A stretch of 64,000 nucleotides of DNA from Bacteroidales bacterium (GTDB taxonomy: Bacteria; Bacteroidota; Bacteroidia; Bacteroidales; UBA932). Position 1 is the first letter of the stretch. Each line of letters opens with the position of its first letter. Of this stretch, positions 40,574 through 45,935 are shown piece after piece. The notes under the pieces are model-generated. The model worked only from the letters and a program-made list of their open reading frames with translations, was not told the origin of the DNA and made no database searches. A program made the translations under genes and the position numbers. The stretch covers positions 1 through 64,000 of the forward strand of contig JAKSJO010000008.1 in NCBI GenBank assembly GCA_024398125.1, read 5' to 3'.

Positions 40574-40644
40574 TGAGGTATGGTGTAATGGCAGCACATG
40601 GGATTTTGGTTCCCCCAGTCAGCGTTCGAGTCGCTGTACCTCAA
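40574..40644 (+). tRNA. tRNA-Gln (anticodon TTG)
   Basis: 71 nt. Acceptor stem TGAGGTA (40574-40580) pairs with TACCTCA (40637-40643), discriminator A at 40644, no encoded CCA. The D arm contains GGTGTAATGGC, the anticodon loop is TTTTGGT with anticodon TTG, and the T arm is CAGCG TTCGAGT CGCTG. The sequence closely follows the usual bacterial glutamine tRNA. The outermost anticodon-stem pair is a T-C mismatch. It reads CAA/CAG glutamine codons. Confidence 0.95.
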
Positions 40645-40654
40645 CTTCCTATAC

Positions 40655-40770
40655 GGGGGACATGTCCCCCGAACCCCCAGCGCCGCTTAAGTGCCTTTCC
40701 ATATTTTCTCGCGCAGCTCGAAAATACACGGCACCGCGGCGGTCCGCTGATGCGGACCTCGCTTCGCTCA
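40655..40770 (-). repeat. Intergenic structured repeat, diverged copy 3 (inverted relative to copies 1 and 2)
   Basis: Read on the minus strand this stretch aligns along its whole length with the two direct copies at 44181 and 44291. Shared blocks include GCGAAGCGA, GCATCAGC, GTGCCGTGTATTT, GGAAAGG and GGGGGTT, and the element ends in a G-rich hairpin (here the 16-bp palindrome at 40655-40670). The hairpin around GCATCAGC has stem GGTCCGC/GCGGACC here but ATTTGC/GCAAAT in the other copies, and the second hairpin has TATTTTC/GAAAATA here but TATTTGT/ACAAATA there. Pairing is kept although the bases differ. Confidence 0.8.
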
Positions 40771-40850
40771 AAGAAGATCCCGATGCGGACTTTTGATGCG
40801 GATTTTTGCAATCGGGGGCTAAGATTGAACCGGATTGATAGAAGCTATGG

Positions 40851-40883
40851 GGTCATGCCCGTTCGGGCTTGACCTGTTTTTTT
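40851..40883 (+). terminator. Intrinsic terminator downstream of tRNA-Gln and repeat
   Basis: GGTCATGCCCG (40851-40861) and CGGGCTTGACC (40864-40874) form an 11-bp stem with one T-T mismatch, followed by seven Ts (40877-40883). It closes the tRNA transcript. The rest of 40771-41045 shows no gene; it holds TGATGCGGA-like fragments near 40780-40805 that echo the repeat, and AT-rich sequence before the next gene. Confidence 0.8.
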
Positions 40884-41045
40884 GTGTGCGGATTCCTTGG
40901 CTGTTTCCGGGACCAACTTAAACAATGTAACAGGAATCCAATATTTGTGAACAAAAATGACATTTTTCACGGCTCGAATGGCGTTTGGGCACAATGTTTG
41001 TGCGCTTTTTGACTCGTGTTTATAAAACTGTAAGTCGTGTTACAC

Positions 41046-44000
41046 ATGAAGAAATTACTAATCATGCTTACCAGCGTGTTGCTGGTTCTGGCATTCTCAG
41101 ACAAAGCCTTCGCGCAGAGGGCCAAGACTGATGCAACCATTACCATTACCTTGACGGATTCAATGACTGACGAACCTGTTGGCTTTGCTACTGTTCAGCT
41201 CCTCGTCCCTGGCGAGGACAAGGCGTACAAGTATGCTCTCAGTGACGGCGATGGTGTTGCAAAATTTGAAAAACTGAAGGCAGGTACCTACAATGTCAAA
41301 GCTGAGATGATGGGCTACATGGCCTATACAAAGGAGATAACTCTCGAGGCTTCCCAGAATCTTGATCTCGGAAAGGTCAAGATGGAACCTGACCAGAGAG
41401 TCCTCGATGCAGCAAAGGTTTCAGCTGTCGGAAACACCGTCATTGTAAAGAAAGATACGATCGAGTATAACGCAACCGCATTCAAGACTACCGAGAATGA
41501 TGTTCTTGAGGACCTCCTCAAAAAGCTTCCGGGAGTTGTTGTCGGCGATGACGGTTCAATCACCGTTAACGGCCAGACCATCACCCAGGTATATATCGAC
41601 GGCAAGACCTTCTTCCTCAATGACCCTAACCTGGCTACCAAGAACATTCCTGCGAAGATTGTCGAGAAGGTTAAGGTTGTCCAGAAGAAGTCAGACCAGG
41701 CTGAATTCACCGGTATCGACGATGGCCAGGAGACAACAGTCCTCGACCTTACCGTACAGCAGGGCATGATGAACGGCCTTATCGGTAACGCACAGCTTGG
41801 AGGTGGACACGATCTCCCGGCAAAGGCTTCCGCATATGATGACTACCGTTTCCAGAGCAATGTATTCCTCGGAAACTTCAAGTCTGATACCCAGCTCAGC
41901 ATCATCGCAAATGCAAATAATGCGAACAACCAGCGCTTCGGCGGTGGCGGCGGCATGGGCGGCGGTATGATGGGCGGCATGGGCGGCTTCGGCGGCGGCA
42001 TGGGCGGCGGTGGTGGAATCACCACATCCGGCATGCTCGGTCTCAATGCTGGCGGCAACTTCTTCGATGACCGCATGGAGGTGTCAGGTAACGGACAGCT
42101 CAACGGTTCACGTACCGATTCTCGTTCAGATGTCAACAAGCTGACCTCTCGCCAGGGTGATTACGATATCTTTGATGAAACCCACAGCATAGGCAACTCG
42201 AACAACTATGGCGAGAGCTTCGGAATGCGTCTCACCCATGAGTTCTCAAAGAACACTTCTATTGTGTTCCAGCCTCAGATCAGCTTCAACAACAGTCATA
42301 GCGACCGCATCCAGGATCAGACTTCGTTCAATCAGCTCAAGTCAAACGGCGACAGAACCAAGTCCAGCGACAGCTTCAGCAACAATGTCAGCGATGGCCA
42401 GAGCACCACAATCGGCGGTTCTCTCATGCTTCGCCAGCGTCTCGGTCTTCCTGGTCGTACCTTGACTGCCACCATCCGTCCAAATTTCACCAATTCCGAT
42501 ACAGACGGATACACCCAGTCTATCATGAATACCTACATCGGCGACAAGTCGATCTCGGCAATCACCAACCAGCGTACCTTCCAGAACAGCAAGTCATATT
42601 CAATGAATGCCAATGCGACTTACACTGAGCCACTCGGAAACCATTTCTACGCAGAGGCGAACTACGCATTCAACTGGAGCAAGACTGTATCGGAGAAGAA
42701 GGCGTGGGACAATCTCGACAATACAGGATTCAGCAAGGACAATCTGTTCTATAATACCGCCGGAGAGGTGTTCAATGGTGTATATTCAAACAATATCATC
42801 AATGAAACCACTCGCCAGACCATGGGACTCAACATGCTCTACCAGAGCGATCAGCTTCGTGCCCAGGTCGGTGTGAGCCTCATCCCTACCAAGATGCGCA
42901 ACGATACCGAGAGGGCAAATTACCAGCTTGACACCACCATCAACGTAGTGAACTGGTCTCCACAGGCTCAGGTACGTTGGGAGCCGAACGACAACAACAA
43001 TGTCCGTCTCAACTATCGTGGTAACTCAAGCCAGCCTTCGATCAACCAGCTCATGCCGGTTCCTGACAACTCGAACCCTATGAGCCAGACCCTCGGTAAC
43101 CCATCGCTTGCTCCTTACTTCAGCCACAACTTCGGTGGTGAATACCGTTACAACAACAGAAGGACCTTTTCATCATTCAATGTCAGACTGAACGGAGGCT
43201 TCACTCAGGATCCTATCACCAACGCGACCCTATACGGTGCAGGCAACACCAGATATTCAATCCCATTCAATGGAAAGAATACCTATAACTACAGCGGCAA
43301 TACCATGGTGAACCTTCCTATCGCGAAGTCCAACTTCTCGATTTCGAACGACCTCGGTTTCAATTCATCAACCTCTTCATCATACGAAGGCAGCAAGGAT
43401 CTTGATGTAACCAAGTATTACAACAAGGGCGAATTCGACTACAACGGCTTCTTCCGTGACTATCCAGACTTCACCAGGTCAAAGGACTTTACCGTCAACG
43501 ACATGGTTTCAAGAAGCTTCAACGAGAGATTCCGCTTGACATACCGTGCTGATGCAATCGAGGCACAGGTCGGCATTTCAACCAGGTACTCGAATACCAC
43601 CAACTCTATCGATACCAAGACCAACATCTCGAACTGGAACAATACCGCTACCGGATCCCTCACCTGGAACTGGTCACTTACCGGAATGTCAGTGCAGTCT
43701 GATGTGAATTATCGCTGGTATGCAGGTTATACTACTCCACTTGATCCAGAGTGCATCTGGAATGCTGAGATCACCAAGCTTATCCTCAAGAACAGGGTAA
43801 CAATGGCTCTCCGTGCAGTCGATATCCTCGGCCAGTCAAAGACCTTCACTGTTAGCGACAGCAGCAGTGCGCACACTGAGACCCTCAGCAATACCCTCGG
43901 ACGTTACATCATCCTTTCATTCACCTGGCGTTTCGGCAGCTTCGGCCGTGGCGGTATGGGCGGCGGCATGATGGGCGGCGGCGCAAGAGGTGGCCGTGGC

Positions 44001-44066
44001 GGCATGGGCGGCGGTCGTGGAATGGGCGGTCCAGGCATGGGCGGCTTCGGCGGCGGCAGATTCTAA
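41046..44066 (+). CDS. Outer membrane beta-barrel protein, TonB-receptor-like (carboxypeptidase-regulatory N-domain, OMP_b-brl_3 type)
   Basis: 1006 residues from ATG at 41046; the GTG three codons earlier is less likely. Signal peptide MKKLLIMLTSVLLVLAFSDKAFA. Then a carboxypeptidase-regulatory-like domain (TDSMTDEPVGFATVQLLVPG, KAGTYNVKAEMMGYMAYTKE), a plug-like region (LEDLLKKLPGVVVGDDGSIT, VYIDGKTFFLNDP) and a large barrel. Two Gly/Met-rich tracts stand out: one near residue 300 (GGMGGGMMGGMGGFGGGMGG) and one as a ~40-residue tail after the last barrel strand ILSFTWRF. This family is widespread in Bacteroidota; its substrate is unknown. Inverted copies of an intergenic repeat flank the gene. 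Confidence 0.88.
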   Translation: MKKLLIMLTSVLLVLAFSDKAFAQRAKTDATITITLTDSMTDEPVGFATVQLLVPGEDKAYKYALSDGDGVAKFEKLKAGTYNVKAEMMGYMAYTKEITLEASQNLDLGKVKMEPDQRVLDAAKVSAVGNTVIVKKDTIEYNATAFKTTENDVLEDLLKKLPGVVVGDDGSITVNGQTITQVYIDGKTFFLNDPNLATKNIPAKIVEKVKVVQKKSDQAEFTGIDDGQETTVLDLTVQQGMMNGLIGNAQLGGGHDLPAKASAYDDYRFQSNVFLGNFKSDTQLSIIANANNANNQRFGGGGGMGGGMMGGMGGFGGGMGGGGGITTSGMLGLNAGGNFFDDRMEVSGNGQLNGSRTDSRSDVNKLTSRQGDYDIFDETHSIGNSNNYGESFGMRLTHEFSKNTSIVFQPQISFNNSHSDRIQDQTSFNQLKSNGDRTKSSDSFSNNVSDGQSTTIGGSLMLRQRLGLPGRTLTATIRPNFTNSDTDGYTQSIMNTYIGDKSISAITNQRTFQNSKSYSMNANATYTEPLGNHFYAEANYAFNWSKTVSEKKAWDNLDNTGFSKDNLFYNTAGEVFNGVYSNNIINETTRQTMGLNMLYQSDQLRAQVGVSLIPTKMRNDTERANYQLDTTINVVNWSPQAQVRWEPNDNNNVRLNYRGNSSQPSINQLMPVPDNSNPMSQTLGNPSLAPYFSHNFGGEYRYNNRRTFSSFNVRLNGGFTQDPITNATLYGAGNTRYSIPFNGKNTYNYSGNTMVNLPIAKSNFSISNDLGFNSSTSSSYEGSKDLDVTKYYNKGEFDYNGFFRDYPDFTRSKDFTVNDMVSRSFNERFRLTYRADAIEAQVGISTRYSNTTNSIDTKTNISNWNNTATGSLTWNWSLTGMSVQSDVNYRWYAGYTTPLDPECIWNAEITKLILKNRVTMALRAVDILGQSKTFTVSDSSSAHTETLSNTLGRYIILSFTWRFGSFGRGGMGGGMMGGGARGGRGGMGGGRGMGGPGMGGFGGGRF

Positions 44067-44094
44067 TAACAAGGGGGAGACGGCTCCATAAAAT

Positions 44095-44109
44095 GGGGAG
44101 AAACTCCCC
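44095..44109 (+). repeat. Small G/C-run hairpin like the end of the intergenic repeat
   Basis: GGGGAG (44095-44100) and CTCCCC (44104-44109) form a perfect 6-bp stem with an AAA loop, resembling the terminal hairpin of repeat copy 2 (GGGGGAG/CTCCCCC). A second GGGGGAG lies at 44073-44079. It may be a partial repeat copy. Confidence 0.35.
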
Positions 44110-44129
44110 CTGATCCTCATAAAATTAAT

Positions 44130-44168
44130 AAGAACGACTCAGGCAAAACACCTTGGGTCGTTCTTTTT
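44130..44168 (+). terminator. Intrinsic terminator after the barrel gene
   Basis: AAGAACGACTC (44130-44140) pairs with GGGTCGTTCTT (44155-44165) including one G-T pair; a run of Ts ends at 44168. Confidence 0.85.
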
Positions 44169-44180
44169 ATTTATCTAAAT

Positions 44181-44278
44181 CTCGCGAAGCGAATTTGCAT
44201 CAGCAAATCGGCCGTGCCGTGTATTTGTGAGTTTACGAACAAATACGGAAAGGTGGAAAGGCCGTGGGGGTTACAGGG
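44181..44278 (+). repeat. Intergenic structured repeat, copy 1
   Basis: 98 nt, identical to copy 2 except one base (G/A near the 3' part). Internal hairpins: ATTTGC/GCAAAT around an ATCA loop (44193-44208) and GTATTTGT/ACAAATAC (44221-44246). It lacks the terminal G-run hairpin that copy 2 and copy 3 have. Period between copies 1 and 2 is 110 nt. Confidence 0.85.
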
Positions 44279-44290
44279 TAGTCGCTTTTT

Positions 44291-44402
44291 CTCGCGAAGC
44301 GAATTTGCATCAGCAAATCGGCCGTGCCGTGTATTTGTGAGTTTACGAACAAATACGGAAAGGTGGAAAGGCCGTAGGGGTTACAGGGGGAGTGTCTCCC
44401 CC
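44291..44402 (+). repeat. Intergenic structured repeat, copy 2, running into the end of phoH
   Basis: Same 98-nt unit as copy 1, extended by the hairpin GGGGGAG/CTCCCCC (44386-44402). The phoH stop codon (TAA on the minus strand, 44383-44381) lies inside the repeat's conserved GGGGTTACAGGG block, so the last codons of phoH are repeat sequence. Confidence 0.85.
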
Positions 44403-45337
44403 TTATTATTGTCAAAAGCCTTTACGATCTTTGATACCAGAGGGTGGCGGACGATGTCTTCATTGCTGAACTCGATGACGCTTACCCCCTTGATGTCCTT
44501 GACCAGAGAGATGCCCCGAAGCAGTCCTGAGTCATTGCGGTTGGGAAGGTCGACCTGGCTGGCATCACCGGTCACTATGAACTTGGCGTTGCAGCCCATG
44601 CGGGTCAGGAACATCTTCAGCTGACCGAGATTGGTGTTCTGGGCCTCGTCGAGTATGACGCAGGCACGGTCGAGAGTGCGTCCACGCATGTACGCGAGAG
44701 GGGCGATCTGGATGGTGCCTTCCTGGATGAACTCCTGGAGCCTGCGCGAAGGAATCATGTCGCCTAGGGCGTCATATAGTGGCTGGAGATATGGGTCGAG
44801 CTTGTCCTTGAGGTCTCCCGGAAGGAATCCGAGACGTTCGCCGGCCTCTACGGCAGGACGGGTGAGGATGATTCTCTTTATCTCCCTGTTCTTGAGAGCG
44901 CGGACGGCGAGGGCTATCGCGATATAGGTCTTTCCTGTTCCGGCAGGGCCGAGAGCGAAAACCAGGTCGTTGTCGAAATAAGCCTTGACCATGTCCTGCT
45001 GTGTACGGTTTCTGGCCTTGATAGGCTTGCCCTCTGTGTTGTAGACAATGGTGGCATCGCCGTCCAGCTTGAACTTGTCCGCAGAGGTCTCGCCATCGAA
45101 GATGTCCTCGACATCATACAGCGTAAGCTTGGTCTTGTGCTGACGTCTCTCGACGAGCTGAGCGAACTTGGTCTCGAAGTCCTCGATCTGCTCGGGCTTG
45201 CCGTCCAGAATGATGTCGGTTCCGCGCGCCACGACCTTCATGTCGGGATAGTAGCGGCAGAATTCCTCAAGTATCTTGTTGCCTGCTCCGTAAATCTCAA
45301 CGGGGTCGATGGCTTCCAGTCGGATAGTTTTCTTCAT
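44381..45337 (-). CDS. phoH: PhoH family P-loop ATPase
   Basis: 318 residues from ATG at 45337, chosen because a -7 box ends 4 nt upstream; the longer ORF runs back through the neighbouring gene. PhoH-type domain: ALGPAGTGKTYIAIALAVRA (Walker A), LTRPAVEAGERLGFLPGDLK, and VILDEAQNTNLGQLKMFLTR with TGDASQVDLP. The N-terminal ~110 residues include a KH-like segment (FCRYYPDMKVVARGTDIILD). The family is linked to RNA metabolism; its precise job is not settled. The C-terminal tail NNKGETLPL is encoded by repeat copy 2. Confidence 0.92.
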   Translation of the reverse strand: MKKTIRLEAIDPVEIYGAGNKILEEFCRYYPDMKVVARGTDIILDGKPEQIEDFETKFAQLVERRQHKTKLTLYDVEDIFDGETSADKFKLDGDATIVYNTEGKPIKARNRTQQDMVKAYFDNDLVFALGPAGTGKTYIAIALAVRALKNREIKRIILTRPAVEAGERLGFLPGDLKDKLDPYLQPLYDALGDMIPSRRLQEFIQEGTIQIAPLAYMRGRTLDRACVILDEAQNTNLGQLKMFLTRMGCNAKFIVTGDASQVDLPNRNDSGLLRGISLVKDIKGVSVIEFSNEDIVRHPLVSKIVKAFDNNKGETLPL

Positions 45338-45341
45338 GACA

Positions 45342-45349
45342 CAAAGATA
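45342..45349 (-). promoter_or_regulatory. -7 box TATCTTTG placed 4 nt before the phoH ATG
   Basis: Minus-strand TATCTTTG, exact match, followed by TGTC and then the phoH ATG. This predicts a leaderless or nearly leaderless mRNA, as for the gene at 808. Confidence 0.65.
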
Positions 45350-45372
45350 AGAGATATTCAAGGAATTATCAT

Positions 45373-45380
45373 TAAATTTG
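45373..45380 (+). promoter_or_regulatory. -7 box for the SPOR lipoprotein operon
   Basis: TAAATTTG, exact match, 21 nt before the ATG at 45402. It lies 23 nt from the divergent phoH -7 box. Confidence 0.55.
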
Positions 45381-45401
45381 CAGATTGTGAATAAGACCGA
45401 G

Positions 45402-45935
45402 ATGAAGTTTCGCATATCGACAATCAGCGCACTTCTGCTGCTCATGTTCAGCCTTACCGGCTGTGATTTCTTCCGTACTCTCGCAGGACGTCCCACCTCT
45501 GCGGACATAGCTGCGCGTGCCGAGAGAATCGCGCAGTATGAAGATAAGCTCATGAAGGAACAGGCGGTCCAGGATTCGCTGGCGGCTGTCCGGAAGGCTC
45601 AGGAGGCAAGGACAGCGGCAGCTGAGGCAATCGCGAACCTCGGCTATATTGTCCAGCCTTCAAATCAGGTAAAGTCACTCAATGGCATAAGACTTGAGCA
45701 TGACTACAGTCTGATGATAGGAACATACCACAATGTCGACAATGCAGTAAAGCTTGCCGAAAGCATCAGGGAACAAGGCTTTCCGACTGATGTCATCAGA
45801 TTCTTCTCCGGAGCCGTCGCCATCGCCACATGCGCAACCGACGATCCTGTGGAGTTTATCCAATTCATGGAAAAGGTCAAGGGACAGAGCTTCTGCCGTC
45901 CCGATGCATGGATTCTCAAGAAGGTAGCTGAATGA
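45402..45935 (+). CDS. SPOR-domain lipoprotein
   Basis: 177 residues from ATG at 45402, which opens a lipoprotein signal (MKFRISTISALLLLMFSLTG, then Cys). The TTG-initiated extension upstream overlaps the -7 box. A helical, Ala/Glu/Arg-rich segment follows (residues about 38-85), then a SPOR-like domain (YSLMIGTYHNVDNAVKLAES, then REQGFPTDVIRFFSGAVAI). SPOR domains bind denuded peptidoglycan strands at division or cell-wall sites. Its stop overlaps the start of the M28-like/TonB gene (ATGA), so the two are translated together. Confidence 0.8.
   Translation: MKFRISTISALLLLMFSLTGCDFFRTLAGRPTSADIAARAERIAQYEDKLMKEQAVQDSLAAVRKAQEARTAAAEAIANLGYIVQPSNQVKSLNGIRLEHDYSLMIGTYHNVDNAVKLAESIREQGFPTDVIRFFSGAVAIATCATDDPVEFIQFMEKVKGQSFCRPDAWILKKVAE

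Follow-up and report, generated by a model that had tools for sequence, protein, structure and literature searches.

A family of BOX- and ERIC-like structured interspersed elements in a genus of Bacteroidales

What kind of element is a short repeat that stands, in inverted copies, on both sides of a barrel gene in a Bacteroidales genome? The window analyzed here is the whole 64,000-nucleotide (nt) stretch given by positions 1 to 64,000 of contig JAKSJO010000008.1, forward strand, and its three copies of the repeat are called w1, w2, and w3. A first-pass annotation had described two direct copies (44181-44278 and 44291-44402) and a diverged, inverted copy (40655-40770), and had proposed an undescribed REP-like or small non-autonomous element, or a structured RNA. 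The three copies are present with the stems and loops that it gave. Our analyses show that they belong to a real family of structured interspersed elements, nearest in behavior to BOX and ERIC repeats. The reading that we favor, at a probability of about one-half, is that this BOX/ERIC-like family, new to the literature that we searched, has spread in trans and has sometimes been kept. It is supported by dispersed copies, tandem repeats, presence and absence between sister species, strand-specific covariation, a terminal hairpin (P5) flush with gene ends, and slowly changing sites; from these observations we infer the route of spread and an action of the folded strand.

Fold and strand of the element

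On one strand the element reads, in order, as a hairpin (P1), a helix directly after it (P2), P3, a GGAAA internal loop, P4, a linker, the returning side of P2 (P2′), a G-rich spacer, and a 3′ hairpin, P5, which has no U-tract. The P1 loop is usually ATCA, and CATCAG is kept in 112 of the 144 distinct copies to which 208 entries were collapsed. An additional 5′ hairpin, P0 (of the GCGAAGCG type), is optional, with 61.6% of its cells pairing in the 85-row alignment described below. The compensatory changes listed by the first-pass annotation are real, and one further helix, P2, had been overlooked: in the alignment of this genome's copies, which also brings out their shared loops and spacers, it is CGGCC/GGCCG in w1 and w2 and CGCCGC/GCGGCG in w3. 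A proper P5 hairpin is missing from w1.

Covariation was assessed in two alignments. The first, made with covariance model R1, contains 52 distinct rows drawn from 56 matches at 48 loci, some of which overlap. Pairing was seen in 95.2% of its 1618 cells vs. 73.5% in shuffles, two-sided changes occurred in 31/35 pairs, and the two-sided cells numbered 291, compared to 66.4 ± 6.9 in shuffles; the covariation score, 0.421, was at most 0.047 once the partner had been slid by 1 to 3 columns. The second alignment, with 85 rows from public genome contigs, partly overlaps the first and gave 92.5% paired cells, 508 two-sided cells vs. 148 ± 9, and a score of 0.445 vs. 0.108. Because both alignments were fitted by covariance models and their rows are related, these numbers lean towards structure, but the distance from the controls is, in our judgment, greater than model fitting and row kinship can explain. 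With covariation beyond chance by shuffles and by partner slides, and far above the shuffles in both of the overlapping alignments, the claim that the folded form is under selection is supported.

The paired cells also single out a strand. In the orientation with P5 at the 3′ side, G·U cells outnumber A·C cells 47 to 3, a count that is somewhat favored by an alignment made for this strand and that fits RNA and single-stranded DNA (ssDNA) alike. The count points to the strand with P5 at its 3′ side as the folded one. The folding energies of w2 and w3 lie below those of shuffles on both strands, with z values of −2.7 to −3.8 as RNA and −3.6 to −5.0 as DNA.

Table 1. Copies of the element in the window, helices of w2, and two neighboring genes. 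Model R1 was built from ten copies of this genome, w1, w2, and w3 included, so that their scores are not independent of the model.
Feature	Position	Strand	Description	Support
Copy 1 (w1)	44179..44288	+	P1-P4 core with degenerate P5; first unit of a 110-bp tandem pair	cmsearch, model R1: 114.6 bits, E 3.8e-21
Copy 2 (w2)	44289..44405	+	Full element, P0-P5	cmsearch, model R1: 143.1 bits, E 3.7e-27
Copy 3 (w3)	40652..40772	-	Full element, diverged, inverted	cmsearch, model R1: 89.7 bits, E 7e-16
P1 hairpin of w2	44303..44318	+	ATTTGC-ATCA-GCAAAT	
P2 of w2	44319..44374	+	44319-44323 (CGGCC) with 44370-44374 (GGCCG); encloses P3 and P4	98.8% of cells paired; two-sided changes in 4/5 pairs
P3 of w2	44326..44364	+	44326-44328 (GCC) with 44362-44364 (GGT); internal loop with GGAAA at 44357-44361	99.3% of cells paired
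P4 hairpin of w2	44331..44356	+	GTATTTGT/ACAAATAC; loop length variable in the family; TTT/AAA orientation largely kept	98.9% of cells paired
P5 terminal hairpin of w2	44386..44402	+	GGGGGAG-TGT-CTCCCCC; end abutting the neighbor gene	
tRNA-Gln	40574..40645	+	Neighbor of w3, outside the element	
PhoH-like gene	44381..45553	-	Reading frame enters w2; stop codon 44381-44383 inside the element	

Occurrence and turnover of the copies

How far does the family extend beyond the window? This genome (2.34 Mb in 49 contigs) contains 10 full-length matches to R1 at E ≤ 7e-16 and two weak partial ones (cmsearch). A plain DNA search with the window copies found nine of those ten, as separate places or as parts of the query, w3 only weakly; with w1-w2 as the query it gave eight further places besides the query and w3, seven of them at E ≤ 1.1e-38 and one weak. 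The matches are mostly 91 to 125 bp long (range 46 to 149 bp, including fragments and long P4 loops), and two copies on C1 lie in a duplicated region. The pattern GGGGGAG-N1-6-CTCCCCC occurs at 9 places in the genome vs. 0 for a reversed control pattern. The idea that P5 is an independent host hairpin serving as a target was rejected, as the exact hairpin belongs to a full copy at seven of its nine places and to an element fragment at the remaining two.

Further copies with the same hairpins were found in related genomes. A first sample gave matches in 13/61 genomes, namely this one and 12/36 of the same genus, with none among 24 from other families of the order. A second covariance model, R2, matched 161/400 genomes of the genus, which is apparently Cryptobacteroides, and 64/150 of those with completeness ≥90% and contamination ≤5%; at this sensitivity 239/400 had no match, and nine candidates were scored per genome, so that copy numbers are lower bounds. 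Only two of 393 genomes matched in an order-wide sample, both of this genus; among the listed rows that lacked a match were one further genome of the genus and three from elsewhere in the family. When one genome per species was scanned for the pattern, over 84,980 species, 100 stretches came up; of the 80 that were listed and searched with R2, 77 matched, and the records of the other three carry the titles Pedobacter, Clostridia, and Gottesmanbacteria. In the genomes sampled, the element was found in one genus only. Viral contigs contained no match to the exact pattern, which would miss divergent variants, and phages and plasmids gave no blastn match with w2 as the single query; a phage or plasmid origin was set aside on these results.

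That the element is undescribed, as first proposed, is borne out within the searches made: Rfam 15 recognized only tRNA in the window at gathering thresholds and no family on the element at eight loci at E ≤ 1, and the element is not named in the titles or abstract openings found in our literature searches. Contig ends are close to several copies (L023, L027, L030, L041, L042, L050, and L051); the element may therefore interrupt assembly, and the copy numbers may be too low.

Copies turn over between this genome (G000) and that of a sister species (G235). The tandem site of the window has two units here and three in G235, and the w3 site is kept there with many changes (74% identity over the element; the G235 version scores 81.4 bits with R2). 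One site, L130, is cleanly empty in G000; at the L117 site G000 has both element ends only, and at the L113 site only P5 and a few bases. The L005 site carries unrelated sequence in G235, where 10 kb separate the two flanks of the L006 site, each adjoined by a weak element match (36.8 and 17.8 bits); for L119 only one flank was found in G000. A 4.1-kb segment between two inverted copies is itself inverted (G000:C3:27936-32249 vs. G235:C9:37961-42175; L255, L257), with element sequence, one partial, at both G235 ends. Across the 144 copies, 16 have an upstream match of at least 14 nt to their own 3′ end, compared to 2 in one random-pair control, which fits what shrinking tandem arrays would leave.

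Composite arrays of about 1 kb, in which the element is mixed with other repeated modules, were seen in G012 (Candidatus Cryptobacteroides onthequi), at L142 (3800-5230), L115, and L097. A larger mobile unit in G012 was considered and dropped: at array L142 the repeats adjoin transporter-like open reading frames (ORFs), and no transposase-like ORF was seen by eye.

Neighboring genes and conservation at orthologous sites

Where the copies sit was examined with a crude ORF finder (≥90 aa) and ARAGORN; orthologous sites are included, which leaves some dependence among these neighbor counts. Of the 120 copies with a neighbor on the P5 side, 32 have their P5 end −5 to 10 nt from a gene end, vs. 5/119 for the other end (Fisher P = 1.3e-6). 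Coding sequences (CDSs) within −5 to 12 nt of P5 all have their 3′ end there (15/15), while 33 of those farther away point towards it and 36 do not (P = 9e-5). The P5-side neighbor is a tRNA gene in 33/120 copies, vs. 6/222 among background features lying over 1.5 kb from any copy (P = 2e-11). The 3′ ends of 12 tRNA genes are 4 to 11 nt from P5, and six tRNA genes abut P5 with their 5′ end. Among the 96 copies with both neighbors, the nearer neighbor is on the P5 side in 56 and on the other side in 40, which is not significant (P = 0.13), so that only the extreme proximity is asymmetric. Copies stand between tRNA-Gln and tRNA-Met at three loci (L032, L049, and L135) and, in both orientations, between tRNA-Ile and tRNA-Ala (L150 and L170; L200 and L207); at L053, P5 is 4 nt from the RNase P RNA.

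Such positions would suit a cis-acting signal for 3′-end formation or processing in the transcript of the gene that P5 abuts, at its stop codon or tRNA 3′ end, and both the uniform orientation of the abutting CDSs and the 12 tRNA genes that end just short of P5 speak for it. That transcript, however, would hold the complementary strand, yet the excess of G·U over A·C favors the other, and the six tRNA genes that meet P5 with their 5′ end do not fit. We regard a signal of this kind as improbable.

The window illustrates these positions. The P5 end of w3 is ∼6 nt from the 3′ end of tRNA-Gln, and at w2 the element supplies the last residues and the stop codon of the PhoH-like gene (44381-44405). 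The barrel gene between the inverted copies (41037-44066) matches OMP_b-brl_3 and CarboxypepD_reg. The flanking arrangement given by the first-pass annotation is real; elsewhere the copies stand beside quite different genes. In the sister species the two barrel-flanking sites are ∼3 kb apart on one contig in unchanged relative order, and a composite transposon around the barrel gene is unsupported given this shared order. Just after the barrel gene, at 44073-44111, G-run hairpins that resemble P5 occur with no core adjoining and are near-identical in the sister species.

The surroundings were also inspected for transcription signals. TAnnTTTG is a Bacteroidetes −7 motif. A scan for it found 12/144 copies with a forward and 8/144 with a reverse occurrence, 3.9 being expected by shuffling, and 16/144 on the other flank facing the element. 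Evidence for a replication-strand bias is weak: of 121 copies, which are not independent, the flank GC skew on the folded strand exceeds 0.03 in 36 and is lower than −0.03 in 14. At L059 (1186-1384), ∼600 bp from the nearer of two copies, a group I intron match scores 51.1 bits, barely above the gathering threshold of 50.

Are the copies neutral debris? Fifteen between-genome pairs at nine sites had both flanks matched, and in each the element was tested, uncorrected, against the better flank, mostly coding sequence. In 11/15 pairs the element shows greater similarity than either flank, with P < 0.05 in seven pairs at 4/9 sites. Specifically, L017/L123 differ at 2/118 positions vs. 12.6 expected (P = 2e-4), L098/L169 at 2/103 vs. 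16.2 expected (P = 4e-6, with 12 gap columns set aside), and L044/L204 at 10/111 (P = 0.02), and four of the six pairs at the metK site are significant (P = 0.003 to 0.03). Two metK pairs, L011/L159, L108/L126, L091/L107, and L126/L197 do not differ significantly from the better flank. In two pairs the element is less alike than its flanks (L117/L127, 40/110 mismatches vs. 18.8 expected; L055/L121, 50/103 vs. 34.5 expected), an excess that fits diverged or replaced copies. The 60 nt adjoining the element align poorly at L017/L123 and L098/L169. Paralogues within G000 and G235 (w3 left out) differ by up to ∼17%, while C34 and C1 orthologues are ∼99% alike and those of C34 share locus-specific variants, so that recent homogenization is not a likely cause at C34 and C1. 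Slower change than the flanks at four of nine sites means that at least some copies are not neutral debris.

This conservation brings in the main rival explanation, a multicopy family of structured noncoding RNAs, either small RNA genes or cis-acting RNAs, multiplied by tandem or segmental duplication or by recombination rather than mobile. The one-strand fold with conserved loops would be expected of it, as would mismatches fewer than both flanks predict at four sites, two of them with poorly aligned surroundings. Transcription in the sense direction is not preferred: 36 of the 96 copies with both neighbors lie between convergent genes, 24 are antisense to both, 20 lie between divergent genes, and only 16 are sense to both. 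Upstream sequence is poorly conserved at several sites, P5 lacks the U-tract, and the family is missing from most of the 400 genus genomes at the sensitivity used. Such a family of RNAs is a possible but on the whole doubtful explanation.

Spread in trans and relation to known repeats

How could an element without a gene of its own have reached these places? Because it carries no gene, we infer copying in trans, which under the favored reading would be done by a host or mobile-element enzyme that recognizes the folded single strand, as ssDNA or RNA. This enzyme would leave the P5 end beside gene ends, above all those of tRNA genes; some copies might later be kept by selection for a local action of the folded strand, while others would be lost by deletion. 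A bolder version, which we hold as tentative and unlikely in full, would make it a genus-specific multicopy structured RNA or ssDNA element that spreads, settles P5-first at tRNA genes and gene ends, and is kept at many of them because its folded strand acts on the neighbor, perhaps through a protein recruited to the GGAAA internal loop and the CATCAG hairpin; it would then be a mobile and domesticated regulatory element with its own recognition fold.

Two enzyme families, Y1_Tnp and RVT_1, were tested as partners, with genomes of five or more matches counted as copy-rich. The first-pass annotation had pointed to REP-associated transposases, and a REP/BIME-type element mobilized by RAYT, a Y1 tyrosine transposase, would likewise be intergenic and structured and could provide a stop codon, as is reported for GTAG REPs (PMC3733652). 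Most of the genus genomes tested indeed have Y1_Tnp matches, many in proteins of ∼300 aa. Y1_Tnp does not track the element, however: a match is present in 15/19 copy-rich genomes and absent from four, and it is found in 7/10 genomes without copies; in the first sample the presence of Y1 transposases did not follow the element either. No copy lies within ∼1.5 kb of 30 Y1 loci, 11 of them of this genus. The element, at ∼115 bp with several helices and no GTAG tag at its ends, is also not a 20- to 40-bp palindrome. Mobilization by RAYT is thus disfavored and very unlikely; both alternatives of the first-pass proposal, a small non-autonomous element and a structured RNA, still stand, the former favored, and its REP-like part is unsupported. 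The Y1_Tnp matches themselves are weak, in proteins of ∼300 aa that number from none to six per genome (L080, 868-1881 on the minus strand, and Y1 loci L081-L089); the protein at L080 is RAYT-like by eye.

A reverse transcriptase, group II intron-like or other, would go well with an RNA-like fold placed beside tRNA genes and gene ends. RVT_1 does not track the element: it matches in 5/19 copy-rich genomes and in 5/10 without copies, and is missing from the other 14 copy-rich genomes, this one included. No group II intron is among the Rfam matches in the window and eight loci. As a current requirement, retrocopying is disfavored and the least likely route of those weighed here. A recurrent neighbor gene as mobilizer was rejected, the six ORF families present in at least four loci (ORFs ≥100 aa) looking like housekeeping neighbors of orthologous sites, named by eye. 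Two further readings were dropped: an attC-like site, as no attC core boxes were seen by eye, and a riboswitch, as there is no fixed downstream gene.

Several results weigh against spread in trans. No mobilizing enzyme was found among Y1, RVT_1, and the recurrent neighbor ORFs, nor any match in the viral contigs, phages, and plasmids searched. Homology between copies mostly ends near the element edges in G006 and G008, but it extends beyond the element in G003, G012, and G035, and together with the duplicated C1 region this means that some copies are accounted for by segmental copying. In two of the absences the element has an internal deletion, so that loss explains part of the presence/absence pattern. 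No target-site duplication is evident at L130, the one clean empty site, and inspection revealed no terminal inverted repeats: the 5′ end TCTCGCGAAGCGA and the 3′ end CTCCCCCTTA are not complementary, each having a hairpin of its own. Finally, conservation above the flanks at some sites is unexpected for a purely selfish repeat.

Which known repeats does the family resemble? It is small, intergenic, dispersed, structured, and without its own gene, as is the descriptive BOX/ERIC-like class. The BOX elements of Streptococcus pneumoniae supply a gene with its stop codon in 36 cases, have the boxB module absent or in multiple copies, and transpose slowly (PMC3049150). They share with the family described here small size, interspersion, a predicted fold, over-representation between convergent genes, and the supply of stop codons; sequence and architecture are unrelated, and genus-wide covariation, enrichment of tRNA neighbors, one end at gene ends, and orthologues more alike than their flanks set the present element apart from BOX (PMC3049150). 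ERIC or RU-1, RU-2, RU-3, Correia/NEMIS, and other elements like miniature inverted-repeat transposable elements (MITEs) are likewise ∼100 to 200 bp, dispersed, and predicted to give base-paired transcripts; most of these carry terminal inverted repeats through which their two ends pair, and several show a target-site duplication, whereas here the ends are unpaired and the one clean site shows no duplication (PMC2229807). With MITEs in general the family shares small size, lack of coding sequence, dispersal, and presence/absence between relatives, but not, by inspection, terminal inverted repeats. REP/BIME and CGTC repeats resemble it as structured intergenic repeats near stop codons; REPs are 20- to 40-bp palindromes tagged by GTAG or CGTC, while the present element is larger, has several helices, shows no tag, and is not tracked by Y1 (PMC3733652). 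CGTC repeats have no dedicated transposase and are found in several phyla, Bacteroidetes among them (PMC3733652). CIR repeats of Caulobacter and Brucella are similar in having a conserved two-armed RNA fold and an unclear mobility mechanism, and differ in phylum, in sequence, and in their GANTC motif (PMC2229807).

For the genomes themselves, the element probably accounts for assembly breaks and for an inversion, and the covariance model can be used to annotate a widespread feature missed by the Rfam searches reported here. BOX, ERIC, and other small structured repeats are often viewed as parasites. In this family the fold covaries, a single strand stands out, one end adjoins the ends of genes, and many species of one gut genus offer orthologous copies for comparison; the question of whether such repeats are debris or domesticated RNA or DNA devices thereby becomes testable.

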